A stretch of 64,000 bases of DNA, taken from positions 62,001 through 126,000 of the forward strand of contig JAFCMP010000124.1 of NCBI GenBank assembly GCA_017506865.1. Direction: 5' to 3'. The stretch comes from Tribonema minus (taxonomy: Eukaryota; Sar; Xanthophyceae; Tribonematales; Tribonemataceae). Both the position numbers and the translations under genes were made by a program. The notes beneath the pieces were generated by a model. The model worked only from the letters and a program-made list of their open reading frames with translations, searched no databases and was not told the DNA's origin. Shown here piece after piece: positions 18,234 through 27,828 of this stretch (position 1 is the first letter of the stretch; each line of letters begins with the position of its first letter).

Positions 18234-21200
18234 ATGGCGGACCCGTAAGTGTGCCTGCTTTTTGACTGACAGAGCATCCATGCAAGGGAGGAGCTCATTG
18301 CACTAATCGGTGCACCCCATGCCGCATGAGGTTTGGGTGTGCCCACATTGCCGATTTGCTCCGGCAAGCGCTGCACCGTGTTGCCTCACAGCTGCAACGA
18401 GTAGGTTCGTTGACCCATCAGATCTTTCGACGCCAGCAGAAAACGCTGACTTCATCCATTGCTGCACCTGCCTGGCATGCTCAGTAAGCCCGCGGCAGAG
18501 GCCCCCGGCTCGAAGAAGCGCAGCCCCAACCGTCTGGTGGTCGACGAGGCCACCAATGACGACAACTCCGTTGTAGCTCTGAGCAACGCCAAGATGGAGG
18601 AACTGCAGTTATTTAGGGGGGACACAGTGCTTGTCAAGGGCAAGAAGAACAGGGACACGGTGTGCATCGTCCTGGCAGATGACACCGTGGATGACAGCTC
18701 CATCCGCATGAACAAGGTGAGACTGCTTGCTGGCATCAGACGAGCCACGACGGGTCACTTCACCAGTCGCAGAGTGGCAGCCGGAGCGAGTGTTTTTGCT
18801 GCATTTAGTGAGACAGCTTCTGCAGCAGTGAAATCAGCATTTTAATTGCAGAGCTCGTGCATTTTATACCACCTCGCCCAATTGCATCCCGTGGGGTGCA
18901 CGCTTTCGTTTTCGGAACAAACCTGGCGCAGTCGCCATTTTGACGTTTTGCGCAGTTTGCTCTATTTGACTGTACATGTCCTCAGCTGATCTCAGTTGGA
19001 TTTCAGTTTCCCTCAAATGCCATCATTTTTCTTTTTTTACACTTTGGCAATGCTGGAGCTGCTTGGTGTGCCGTTTATCTGGCCATCAAGCCCCAGAAAT
19101 TACATCGCTGTATGGGCCTTCTGCCTTGCGTAAGTCAGCGCTACAATGCCTGAGATATACCACTTTAGTTTGTATTGTTAGGTGGTCATCAGTTCGCAGG
19201 TGGTGTGCAAGATTCACGTTCGCGCGCTTTGGCAATATTTAATTGCTGTGCACACATGATCACATAGGCTAGTCATGGTGATACATATGCAAAATGCTTC
19301 CCTGATGGCGTGCGAAAGCGTGCGAGTGCGCCTCAGGGACCTGGTGTGTCGACAGCATACAGCATACTCGCACCATCCAAAACTTCTGAGATATTTAATG
19401 ACATGCTGATTATATCTGAATTTATTCTTTGTACTTCAAGTATTAAATACTTCTGAGATATTCTATGACATGCTGATTATTTCTGAAATTATCCTTTGTC
19501 ACGTCGCGCTGTAGGTGGTGCGCAAGAACCTGCGCGTGCGCCTCGGGGACCTGGTGTCGATAGCGGCGTGCGGCGATGTGCCGTACGGCAAGCGCATACA
19601 TGTGCTGCCCATCGATGACACCATTGAGGGCGTTACGGGCAACCTCTTTGACGTCTACCTCAAGCCCTACTTTTTGGAGGCGTACCGCCCGGTCAAGAAG
19701 GGGGACCTGTTTCTCGTGCGCCAGGCCATGCACCCCGTGGAGTTCAAGGTATGCGTGTATTCACATTCTCCGCTTTTGCCTGCCGTTCAAGCACACCTAC
19801 CTGTTGAGGCAAAATACGATGATTCAGCCTCTTTGCAATGCGTGTGATGCGCAAATACAATTGGCTTCTTTTTCGTTACATGTCGTGGATTCATTTTTTT
19901 GGGCATTCACTGAGCATCATCTCCCATTGCTGGGTAGTGTGAATACAGAAGTCATGACATGCTCATCGGGCTGCTAGTGTCTTGTATGTCAGCTGCTTCG
20001 AAGCATTTACACGGTGTTTGATCATGTGCTAGGATGCCCCTGGGGATGTTCAAGTGGTACGTAAACCGGCATCGTTGGGAGCGTCATCTGTAACACCGTG
20101 TGAAGTTATGTAGCTTCCTTCAACGCGCCACACAATACGCGACTTCCAATGTTGCCACTGTCGCACCGTTTGTACACTAACCTCAACATAAGTTATGGGT
20201 CACTCTGCTTGGCTGGTGGGTGCATTGCAACCTGCTGTACTGCATGCAGTCACTTGTGAAGCCCATTAATGAATTCCATGTATGGCCATGTATGCACGCT
20301 AACCCCCCCACACATGTCATGCACCGCCATTGGAAGGTGGTGAAGTGCGACCCCTAGCTGCACTGTATGTCATCACATATAAACATATACATGAATGTCG
20401 TGTATTCACACTGATCCTGTGAGACACACATGTGCACTGCCATGGCAAGGTGGTGAAATGCGACCCCCAACCGTTCTGCATGTGCATTGATGCAAGCTGC
20501 CGCGTGTGGCATCAATGGTCATACGCTTGCACACTGCCCTCTACACATGCCATGCAATGCTATTGCATGGCATGGGCAGGTGGTGGAGTGCAACCCTCAG
20601 CCATACTGTATGTACTCACATGTAAATAGATCAATGAATGTCATTTGTGCACACTGATCCTACAACACATGTATGCACACTCATCCTGTAACACGCGTAT
20701 ATGCACTTCAATCGCATGACATTTGCAGGTGGTGGAGTGCGATCCTCAGCCGTACTGCATATGGATACATGTAAATTACTCCTTGTAGGTAATCACATAT
20801 AAACATCCCTTATCACCTAGAGTTCTGCGATCTTTTGATTCGTTCTCGCAACAATTAATGAATGTCATGTATGCACACTGACCTCTACACATCCCATACA
20901 ACGCCGTTGCATGACATGCGCAGGTGGTGGAGTGTGACCCTCAGCCGTACTGCATTGTCGCGCCGGACACGGTGATCCACTGCGAAGGCGAGCCCATTAA
21001 GCGTGAGGATGAGGAGAGGATGGACGACGTGGGGTATGACGACATTGGGGGGTGCAGGTATGTATCAGGCACACGTATGCATACCCTAGGGCTTGGAGAA
21101 ACGCCGTGGTAGCTTTGACGACCTGGGGTATGATGACATGGCTTTGGCGGGTGCAGGTTTGCATCGGTAACACGTATGCATACCCCACTTAAATGTGACG

Positions 21201-27200: not shown

Positions 27201-27828
27201 AGTCTACAGGTCAGCCGGGCTGTGCATCGACTCAGGCCTTCTACAACAGCTCAGTGCTTCAGAGAACAAGTAGTGAAGTACTGGTTGTTGCATCACGCGC
27301 CGCATACTCCGCCTTTGCACTCCGCAGCCACGTGAGAGTCACACACTGCACCTGACTGAGATTCCGAAAATCCGCTGTTCTAACTTCAACTTTAACTTCA
27401 ATGTGACGCTCCCCTCTGCAACAGGCGCCGACCTCACCGAGATCTGCCAGCGCGCGGCCAAGATGGCCATCCGCGAGAACATCATGAAGGACATGGAGCG
27501 CGAGCGCCTGCGCGCGGCCGCAGGCGACGCCGCCATGGACGACCTCGACGACGGCGAGGGCGATGACACCGTCCCCGAGATCACGGGGCGCCACTTCGAG
27601 GAGGCGGTGCGGAATGCGCGCCGATCCGTCTCGGACCGCGACCTGGCGCAGTACGCCAGCTTCGCGCAGAACCTGCAGCAGAGCCGCTCGCAGATCACGG
27701 GGCCCGCGGGCGGGTCGCTGTCGACGTTCGCGTTCCCAGGGGGGGCGGAGGCGGGGGTGCAGGGGGGCGCGGCGGCGCCTGCGGGGGGCGCGGCCGCGGA
27801 GGACGAGGAGGAGGACCTGTACAGCTGA
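18234..27828 (+). CDS. CDC48: CDC48 / p97 / VCP AAA-ATPase
   Basis: Eleven exons close in frame to 811 residues (plant CDC48 is about 809): 18234-18244, 18485-18716, 19515-19748, 20924-21057, 22303-22537, 23187-23384, 23579-23874, 24775-25024, 25875-26140, 26883-27058, 27425-27828. The hexameric segregase unfolds ubiquitinated proteins in ERAD, chromatin and membrane-fusion pathways in cytosol and nucleus. Residues 15-200 form the N-domain ([17 protein letters not shown]). D1 has Walker A GPPGSGKT at 239-246 and Walker B IIFIDEID at 294-301. D2 has Walker A GPPGCGKT at 512-519 and Walker B LFFDELD at 568-574. The tail ends DLYS, the usual binding end for PUB/PUL cofactors. The first coding exon is only 11 nt; the start is fixed because joining MADP to [11 protein letters not shown] restores the frame. 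Eight introns contain tandem copies of exon edges, listed separately. Confidence 0.97.
20331..20923 (+). repeat. acceptor-side copies of CDC48 exon 4
   Basis: Four degenerate copies of the acceptor plus the first 30 or so bases of exon 4 (gtggtggagtgygaycctca) precede the true acceptor. AG ends at 20336, 20449, 20579 and 20728, with the real one at 20923; spacings are 113, 130, 149 and 195 bp. Each is preceded by related sequence containing catgcacactg and a run such as ttgcatgac. The oldest-looking copy has a stop codon in the exon part. Confidence 0.95.
21020..21275 (+). repeat. donor-side copies of CDC48 exon 4
   Basis: The exon 4 end (gacgtggggtatgaygacat through gggtgcag) and its donor occur three times, with GT at 21058 (true), 21157 and 21257. 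The spacing of 99 and 100 bp is nearly exact, and each copy is followed by related intron sequence containing cacgtatgcatac. Confidence 0.95.
22505..22705 (+). repeat. donor-side copy of CDC48 exon 5
   Basis: The exon 5 end (agagcgagagcaacctgcgc) and its donor at 22538 recur at about 22671-22699 with the donor GTGAGT at 22694, 156 bp downstream. A related flank containing gaagttg and gttgaagtygtgtgastg follows each copy. Confidence 0.88.
22920..23186 (+). repeat. acceptor-side copy of CDC48 exon 6
   Basis: A degenerate version of the exon 6 start (cattcgaggcc..aagaatgctcccgccatc) lies at 23023-23078, upstream of the true acceptor whose AG ends at 23186. The flank tttgggtggygacactcc is repeated at about 22938 and 23137, with a shorter form near 22990. 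Confidence 0.88.
23845..24130 (+). repeat. donor-side copies of CDC48 exon 7
   Basis: The exon 7 end (gcggtttcgcaggaccactt) and donor occur with GT at 23875 (true), 24001 and 24121; spacings are 126 and 120 bp. The flank tacatgcatacc is repeated after the first two. A fourth, weaker match ends at 24620. Confidence 0.93.
24154..24190 (+). repeat. dispersed short repeat, copy 1 of 3
   Basis: The string beginning aattctcgctcagggcgc and ending gcccagatgatt recurs with small changes at 47475-47510 and 56625-56662. All three are in noncoding DNA, in the same orientation. Confidence 0.8.
24255..24634 (-). CDS. nested antisense two-exon gene inside CDC48 intron 7
   Basis: On the strand opposite CDC48, exon 24560-24634 and exon 24255-24500 join across a 59-bp GT-AG intron into a 106-residue protein. 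It starts [18 protein letters not shown] and continues through a helix-rich middle ([35 protein letters not shown]) to an acidic Gly-rich end ([17 protein letters not shown]). The frame closes exactly and codon use is GC-rich as in neighbouring exons, whereas the rest of the intron is not. I do not recognise the family. The first exon overlaps a weak antisense match to the CDC48 exon 7 end, so part of it may derive from a junction copy. It could also be a chance open frame. Confidence 0.5.
24727..24774 (+). repeat. C-rich tract at CDC48 exon 8 acceptor
   Basis: An almost pure run of cytosines broken by short t and a interruptions leads directly into the acceptor cttcag before exon 8. It can serve as the polypyrimidine tract but is far longer than needed. 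Confidence 0.9.
24985..25430 (+). repeat. donor-side copies of CDC48 exon 8 with telomere repeats between
   Basis: The exon 8 end (atggccaaggccgtggccaa through gagtgccag) plus donor occurs four times, GT at 25025 (true), 25149, 25292 and 25422; spacings are 124, 143 and 130 bp. Between the copies lie gtgctagcatttggattagg and TTAGGGTTAGGG-type tracts, one set per unit. Confidence 0.96.
25838..25870 (+). repeat. poly-C tract at CDC48 exon 9 acceptor
   Basis: An uninterrupted run of about 23 cytosines is followed by aacttcaacaccag and exon 9. As with exon 8, it replaces an ordinary polypyrimidine tract and will be length-variable. Confidence 0.9.
26095..26440 (+). repeat. donor-side copies of CDC48 exon 9
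   Basis: The exon 9 end (gtcttcatcatcggcgccac) and its donor at 26141 are followed by three decaying copies, near 26219-26247 (donor lost), 26310-26336 (donor gt at 26335) and 26408-26435 (donor lost). Each is followed by variants of gttgaagttt. Confidence 0.9.
26575..26882 (+). repeat. acceptor-side copies of CDC48 exon 10
   Basis: Four versions of ag|gccggacatcatcgaccc precede or form the exon 10 start, AG ending at 26581, 26674, 26784 and 26882 (true). Spacings are 93, 110 and 98 bp. The flank ttcaagccatc is repeated upstream of several copies. Confidence 0.93.
27035..27225 (+). repeat. donor-side copies of CDC48 exon 10
   Basis: The exon 10 end (gcgcagctcgagaagtttac) and donor at 27059 recur with GT at 27106 and 27210; a fourth copy near 27136-27152 has lost its donor. 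The flank caccaargtagtatgt is shared. Confidence 0.9.

Follow-up and report, generated by a model that had tools for sequence, protein, structure and literature searches.

Analysis of a 64,000-nucleotide (nt) stretch of the genome of the xanthophyte Tribonema minus, hereafter the window, revealed that most introns of its CDC48 (p97/VCP) gene contain diverged direct copies of the exon edges that border them. The copies lie inside the intron, donor copies downstream and acceptor copies upstream of the exon from which they derive, and the same layout was found in kinesin genes and elsewhere in the window. It probably results from recurrent tandem duplication of segments straddling exon-intron junctions, concentrated at exon edges, with the intron-side copies decaying. 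The window is part of contig C124 (JAFCMP010000124.1) of a genome of 158 megabases in 554 contigs. The data are a sample of this one genome rather than the whole of it, drawn from two main gene families (CDC48 and the kinesins) and from the neighbours of CDC48 in the window.

CDC48 introns harbor copies of their own exon edges

The CDC48 gene (18234-27828, + strand) is intact, with 11 exons and 10 introns, and encodes 811 amino acids. Spliced alignment of a Chrysoparadoxa protein (P0009), obtained with a purpose-written splice-aware aligner, reproduced its exon borders with three exceptions: exon 1, which is 11 nt long, the initial base of exon 2, and the stop codon. Among the best 120 of 7994 matches, the closest relatives by identity are stramenopile and mostly ochrophyte: an MMETSP/JGI protein (92%), Pylaiella (90%), a relative coded Undpi1, which we take to be Undaria (90%), and Ectocarpus and Chrysoparadoxa (87%). 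The top-scoring entry of the same 120 is labelled Albugo candida, with 83% identity.

Each 40-nt exon edge was aligned locally to its own intron and to other introns. An own-intron score of at least 31 was obtained for 11 of the 20 CDC48 junctions, in 8 of the 10 introns, which bears out an initial annotation of the sequence that had reported exon-edge copies at eight introns of this gene. Against the gene's other introns the maximum score was 23, with one exception of 34 that we attribute to the homology of the two AAA domains of the protein. Local alignment found no exon-edge copies in introns 1 and 6, the shortest of the gene (240 and 194 nt). Comparison of the window with itself by BLAST gave 67 local direct repeats with a score of at least 42, versus none in dinucleotide shuffles. 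Twelve repeat families were distinguished in CDC48, of which 10 cross a junction and the other two end 15 and 33 nt from one.

Ten individual copies named in the annotation were recovered by local alignment, namely the donor copies at 21157, 21257, 25149, 25292 and 25422 and the acceptor copies at 20449, 20579, 20728, 26674 and 26784. Their scores were 41-113, compared with shuffle maxima of 24-26 in the four introns concerned (100 mononucleotide shuffles) and of 22-28 across all ten introns. The farthest acceptor copies that it listed, at 20336 and 26581, are visible by eye but fall below the alignment threshold. The copies and their main source exon are as follows.

19307..19514, + strand: repeat region on the acceptor side of intron 2; exon 3 start copied best at about 19307-19353 (score 49, 40/47 identical); family extends 50 nt across the 3' junction
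20434..20481, + strand: acceptor copy of the exon 4 start, site 20449/20450, 40/48 identical
20550..20611, + strand: acceptor copy of the exon 4 start, site 20579/20580, 52/62 identical
20714..20760, + strand: acceptor copy of the exon 4 start, site 20728/20729, 43/47 identical
20924..21057, + strand: true exon 4, source of the upstream acceptor copies and the downstream donor copies
21122..21185, + strand: donor copy of the exon 4 end, GT at 21157, 56/64 identical
21225..21283, + strand: donor copy of the exon 4 end, GT at 21257, 51/59 identical
22156..22184, + strand: weak acceptor copy of the exon 5 start, score 37, 26/29 identical
22671..22699, + strand: donor copy of the exon 5 end, GT at 22694, 27/29 identical
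23028..23080 (ends approximate), + strand: copy of the exon 6 start in intron 5, score 55, 41/50 identical
23974..24002 (ends approximate), + strand: donor copy of the exon 7 end, GT at 24001, 26/29 identical
24093..24129, + strand: donor copy of the exon 7 end, GT at 24121, 33/37 identical
25116..25157, + strand: donor copy of the exon 8 end, GT at 25149, 40/44 identical
25259..25341, + strand: donor copy of the exon 8 end, GT at 25292, score 113, 61/63 identical (score 138 in another alignment)
25389..25432, + strand: donor copy of the exon 8 end, GT at 25422, 40/42 identical
26210..26264, + strand: donor copy of the exon 9 end, site lost (26246), 47/55 identical
26314..26382, + strand: donor copy of the exon 9 end, GT at 26335, from alignment
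26661..26705, + strand: acceptor copy of the exon 10 start, site 26674/26675, 36/45 identical
26755..26816, + strand: acceptor copy of the exon 10 start, site 26784/26785, 55/62 identical
27093..27110, + strand: short donor copy of the exon 10 end, GT at 27106, 18/18 identical
27185..27215 (ends approximate), + strand: donor copy of the exon 10 end, GT at 27210, 28/31 identical

Two further features of this gene were observed. Telomere-like TTAGGG/CCCTAA stretches occur within repeat units at 25080-25400, in intron 8, and also at 55135-55464, in an unannotated region. Long C runs stand immediately 5' of the acceptors of introns 7 and 8 (24727-24770 and 25838-25860), where they may represent the polypyrimidine tract.

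Copies are specific to their intron and commoner in long introns

Kinesin motor genes were chosen as a wider sample. The family search gave 132 exon places; 30 loci from this search and 13 further gene stretches were considered, and gene models were obtained by spliced alignment to the genome's other kinesins. Kinesin loci L025, L026, L031, L033, L034, L037 and L038 were left out as repeats of counted genes, together with introns shorter than 60 nt and introns beside an aligned exon shorter than 45 nt, after which several loci had no introns. The final sample comprised 83 introns at 29 loci, with 10 introns from CDC48, and hence 166 exon edges, one of which is short as the 11-nt exon 1 of CDC48 was retained.

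At a score of at least 34, 46 of the 166 exon edges (25 donor and 21 acceptor, in 39 of the 83 introns) matched their own intron, versus 33 matches in 13,096 comparisons of exon edges with introns of other loci. Exon edges never matched the intron on the wrong side (0/88, counting exons of which 80 nt or more were available), in keeping with the statement that the copies always lie outside the true exon; an earlier unfiltered set of 42 introns gave 1/84 at the same threshold.

The presence of a copy was correlated with intron length (Spearman 0.50). Copies were found in 0/8 introns below 300 nt, 6/23 of 300-600 nt, 12/25 of 600-900 nt, 12/16 of 900-1300 nt and 9/11 above 1300 nt, which supports the proposal that repeated duplication across junctions lengthens introns.

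Anatomy of the repeat families

For the family search, introns were compared with themselves after extension by up to 100 nt into the exon on either side. Of the 77 repeat families obtained, 29 reach across the 5' junction and 28 across the 3' junction; the other 20 are restricted to the intron. About 30% of intron bases belong to a detectable repeat family and 25% to a junction family, so that the description of these introns as built from copies is supported for part of their sequence rather than for the whole. The spacing of direct copies is mostly about 90-220 nt, with medians of 141 nt for junction-crossing and 125 nt for intron-only families, and shows no preference for multiples of three (remainders 0/1/2: 93/84/98). 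The exon part of the copies measures 13-100 nt, 100 being the upper limit set, and repeat coverage declines steadily into the exon.

Among the 134 copies analysed (61 donor, 73 acceptor), 37 donor and 52 acceptor copies span the junction and contain the exon edge together with intron sequence. Copies, searched in direct orientation only, lie near their source and some are contiguous with it, which fits local head-to-tail tandem duplication. Seven near-identical rows include four clean, recent and contiguous tandem pairs, only some of them demonstrably at junctions; these pairs are joined with an overlap of 0-5 nt, indicating that long flanking repeats are unnecessary. The event would be a duplication at the DNA level.

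Repeat families are concentrated at junctions

Of the 77 families, 57 (0.74) cross a junction and 71 (0.92) lie at most 60 nt from one, while five (0.06) are more than 100 nt away. The most serious competing explanation, to which we give perhaps one chance in a few, is ordinary tandem duplication with random breakpoints throughout non-coding DNA, selection on exons leaving the junction copies visible and recognisable for longer. It accords with the similar spacing of the intron-only families and with the varied length of the exon parts, as random breakpoints would yield. Random 5-kilobase stretches of the genome also hold local repeats (coverage 0.21; ten stretches range from 0.05 to 0.73), a comparison in which intergenic background is not separable from introns of unknown genes.

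Random breakpoints would, however, place families regardless of junctions. We simulated random-breakpoint tandem duplication with constrained exons and drifting introns, and applied the same detection steps to the product. In unbiased simulations roughly matched to the genes in coverage (observed 0.30) and in mean length (observed 793 nt), the crossing fraction was 0.19-0.45 (21 sets, coverage 0.26-0.39), 0.29-0.55 (15 sets, coverage 0.28-0.45) and 0.26-0.51 (16 sets, coverage 0.26-0.39), all below the 0.74 observed. In 16 simulated sets, 42-65% of the families lay within 60 nt of a junction, versus 92% in the genes, and 0.27-0.46 lay more than 100 nt away. Biased simulations approached the observed crossing fraction with a roughly 4- to 8-fold preference for junctions, and a preference of about 30-fold was needed for the observed closeness.

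A check independent of simulation was made in introns of at least 600 nt. Copies were found for 40 of 104 exon-edge 40-mers and for 37 of 448 deep-intron 40-mers taken outside junction families; deep-intron windows, which are not fully independent of each other, were thus copied 4.7 times less often. The G+C content is 0.65 in exon edges and 0.545 in introns.

Tandem duplication seems, then, to be concentrated at exon edges, and about equally at donor and acceptor. That both edges are hit with similar frequency (29 and 28 families) argues against a cause linked to the direction of transcription and fits a cause in exon DNA or chromatin; a mutational bias would lie behind the concentration, directed either toward exon DNA at large, in which case selection would purge duplications within exons, or toward the junctions themselves.

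Several points weigh against this reading. First, two cruder simulation settings gave crossing fractions of 0.75-0.79, at a coverage of 0.89 that is far above the observed one; settings unmatched to the observed coverage were excluded as evidence for an excess. Secondly, the concentration at junctions depends in part on simulations made here, and the constrained exon part prolongs the detectability of junction families, an effect that by our reasoning is at most about twofold. Thirdly, more than half of the introns (44 of 83) lack a copy at the threshold. Fourthly, the acceptor copies show an intron/exon divergence ratio of only 1.2, below the factor of two expected if only the copy decays on the exon side. 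Finally, none of five stop-codon edges, two of which belong to open frames without a recognised domain, had a copy; a general hot spot in exon DNA would not predict this, but the sample is too small to decide.

Copies decay and leave decoy splice sites

Donor copies diverge from their source by 0.108 over the exon part and by 0.201 over the intron part, close to the twofold ratio expected if selection holds the true exon and only the copy drifts there. In multi-copy families the identity of the exon part is mostly 0.7-1.0. There were 27 cases with several copies; in 20 of these the nearest copy is more exon-like than the farthest, while five are reversed and two tied (p=0.004), and this gradient of similarity would represent a gradient of age. 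The divergence of the copies also supports the view, put forward in the annotation, that decaying copies leave decoy sites.

It had further been stated that the splice dinucleotide often survives in the copies. As a count this is correct, since GT is retained in 28 of 37 donor copies and AG in 40 of 52 acceptor copies, but retention does not exceed that of neighbouring intron dinucleotides (0.66, p=0.29, and 0.70, p=0.35, respectively). Preferential survival of splice dinucleotides is not supported by these rates. Donor positions +2 to +6 are even slightly less conserved than their flanks (0.72 vs 0.80, nominal p=0.035). Judged by their sequence, the copies look as if they evolve neutrally.

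These data bear on the possibility that selection retains junction copies, spare or decoy sites serving to tune splicing, for example through intron retention or nonsense-mediated control. The concentration of families at junctions and the GT or AG present in most decoys would suit such a role; retention at the level of neighbouring dinucleotides, and below the flanks at +2 to +6, gives no sign of a maintained function, and we regard this explanation as improbable. Use of a decoy would bring a stop codon or a frameshift for 43 of the 49 donor copies and 55 of the 57 acceptor copies in which this could be evaluated, so the outer site should be retained, and the outermost sites are presumably still those in use.

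Unlikely origins of the copies: intron birth or artefact

The repeats could also be the footprint of intron birth, whether through the doubling of exonic AGGT segments in tandem or through an introner-type insertion. That introns can be gained by tandem duplication is accepted (PMC3443670, PMC4974935), and many of the copied sites do read AG/GT. In AGGT-type gain an exonic unit supplies both new sites, whereas the copies described here consist of exon plus existing intron sequence, span the junction and remain on the same side as their source, with no wrong-side match. Introners would recur in sequence across loci, and the rarity of exon-edge matches in introns of other loci (33 in 13,096) speaks against this. 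Intron birth is accordingly a very unlikely source of these repeats, and an introner or mobile-element origin in particular is unlikely because the exon-edge copies are private to their intron.

An assembly or gene-model artefact, for which only the use of a single assembly of unknown method speaks, is hardly credible: the copies differ from their source and are spread over many contigs, CDC48 encodes an intact protein, and alignment with the protein of a relative confirms the exon borders.

A proposed model for intron growth from both ends

Based on these observations, we propose that short segments spanning an exon-intron junction would be duplicated in tandem, repeatedly. Each new copy would fall on the intron side, leaving the true exon and the outermost splice site intact; the protein is then unchanged, provided that splicing uses the first of the donors and the last of the acceptors. 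Freed from constraint, the copy would decay, and later events at the same junction would push older copies deeper into the intron. The intron would in this way lengthen from both ends, storing graded fossils of its exon edges together with decoy splice sites. Splicing would have to keep to the first donor and the last acceptor, as exon definition would favor, whereas intron definition or choice of the first-transcribed acceptor would be expected to pick inner copies.

In a broader and more tentative form, for which the odds appear to us somewhat unfavorable, this lineage would possess an exon-edge-targeted duplication process, linked to chromatin, replication or splicing-associated damage, that acts as the main engine of intron growth; its introns could then be read as datable fossil series in which splicing reliably selects the outermost sites.

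Relation to known systems

Introners and introner-like elements share sequence between loci and account for intron content genome-wide. The exon-edge families reported here are private to one intron, and this specificity upholds the distinction from introners that the annotation had drawn. Intronic minisatellites consist of several diverged head-to-tail units, as do our arrays, which differ in being anchored on, and including, a functional exon edge.

The tandem genomic duplication model of intron gain (Rogers 1989; Hellsten et al. 2011, both cited in PMC4974935; reviewed in PMC3443670) likewise involves local tandem duplication within a gene that yields extra splice sites, the spliceosome removing the extra copy. 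In that model the doubled unit is an exonic AGGT segment, and the intron that arises between the two copies is new; here duplication is recurrent, its unit straddles a junction that already exists, and the intron is lengthened at its ends. The annotation had known of no described class of intron repeats with this layout. The class as such still appears undescribed in what we found, but junction-crossing tandem duplication itself has a precedent in the potato RdRp gene, where one duplication crossing an intron-exon boundary made a new intron with a cryptic donor (PMC4974935). That case is a single new-intron event, whereas over a quarter of the sampled edges are copied here (46/166), on both sides, and the copies stay inside the intron.

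In Drosophila, novel introns arose by tandem duplication in a few genes (PMC2891723). Regional tandem duplication there carries splice signals, as in our arrays, but the resulting introns occupy novel positions, whereas the arrays stand at existing junctions. Direct repeats of 4-30 bp (base pairs) at exon/intron borders have also been reported in 213/213 introns and interpreted as insertion scars (Rogers and Bendich 2025, PMC11782384). In that report the 5' border is paired with the 3' border, whereas here one border pairs with the interior of the same intron, at distances that are mostly 60-280 nt.

A literature search judged on titles and abstract openings, mostly without subscription journals, retrieved no description of genome-scale junction-anchored exon-edge arrays in introns. 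The type of mutation is already known; the pattern and its scale appear new. Two open questions are touched, namely how introns lengthen without transposons and how the spliceosome chooses among near-identical sites in series. Many introns of the sample preserve within themselves the order in which they grew. Should the anchoring at junctions prove general in the genome, a process acting locally at exon borders, mutational or chromatin-based, would be indicated. The decoys constitute natural experiments on the choice of the first donor and the last acceptor. Choice of the last acceptor would contradict a 'first come, first served' rule and suggest exon definition.

Occurrence in neighbouring genes and additional observations

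The layout recurs elsewhere in the window (at 33.1-36.9 and 10.9-11.3 kilobases) and in the rest of the genome. The examples in the window are as follows.

33159..33562, + strand: neighbouring putative gene, three acceptor-edge copies (ATCACAG/GCCTGCA, junction at the slash)
36448..36915, + strand: neighbouring putative gene, donor edge CAAAG/GTAGG and three downstream copies
10852..11282, + strand: five acceptor-like edges (TGCAG/GGCAC.GCG; one reads GACAC), the last within the long open frame 11217-15245

At a score of 40, no local repeats were found in the first 7.7 kilobases of the window. In a separate search for AAA-ATPase loci, a repeat overlaps the matched exon in four of seven (L003, L004, L005 and L008). 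Overall, a repeat overlaps the exon frame in 12 of 37 loci, a count to which L024 contributes with a telomere-like repeat and L037 with a coding repeat.

In the 83 introns, the motifs TTGAAG (47 vs 16) and GTTGAA (34 vs 10) favor the first half. Pairing of the intron ends through TTGAAG/CTTCAA was considered and is not supported, as the complement CTTCAA shows no second-half skew (45 vs 41). The skew may reflect an intronic splicing element, or the motifs may be passengers of donor-side duplications.

Other repeats were noted in passing. A dense minisatellite occupies 55559-56092 of the window, its units measuring about 28-30 nt (GGCAGCACG.CTCAGTCAATGGGT), and one of the random genome stretches (L056, 581-2437) contains a unit of about 628 bp in tandem copies. 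The open frame at 7744-9564 of the window matches a TRIC-channel domain (E value 8e-8). Two fragments of the RuBisCO large-subunit gene, each with one TGA, were encountered at C334:714136-714324 (L009) and C112:516888-517037 (L010), and appear to be plastid DNA within the nuclear genome.

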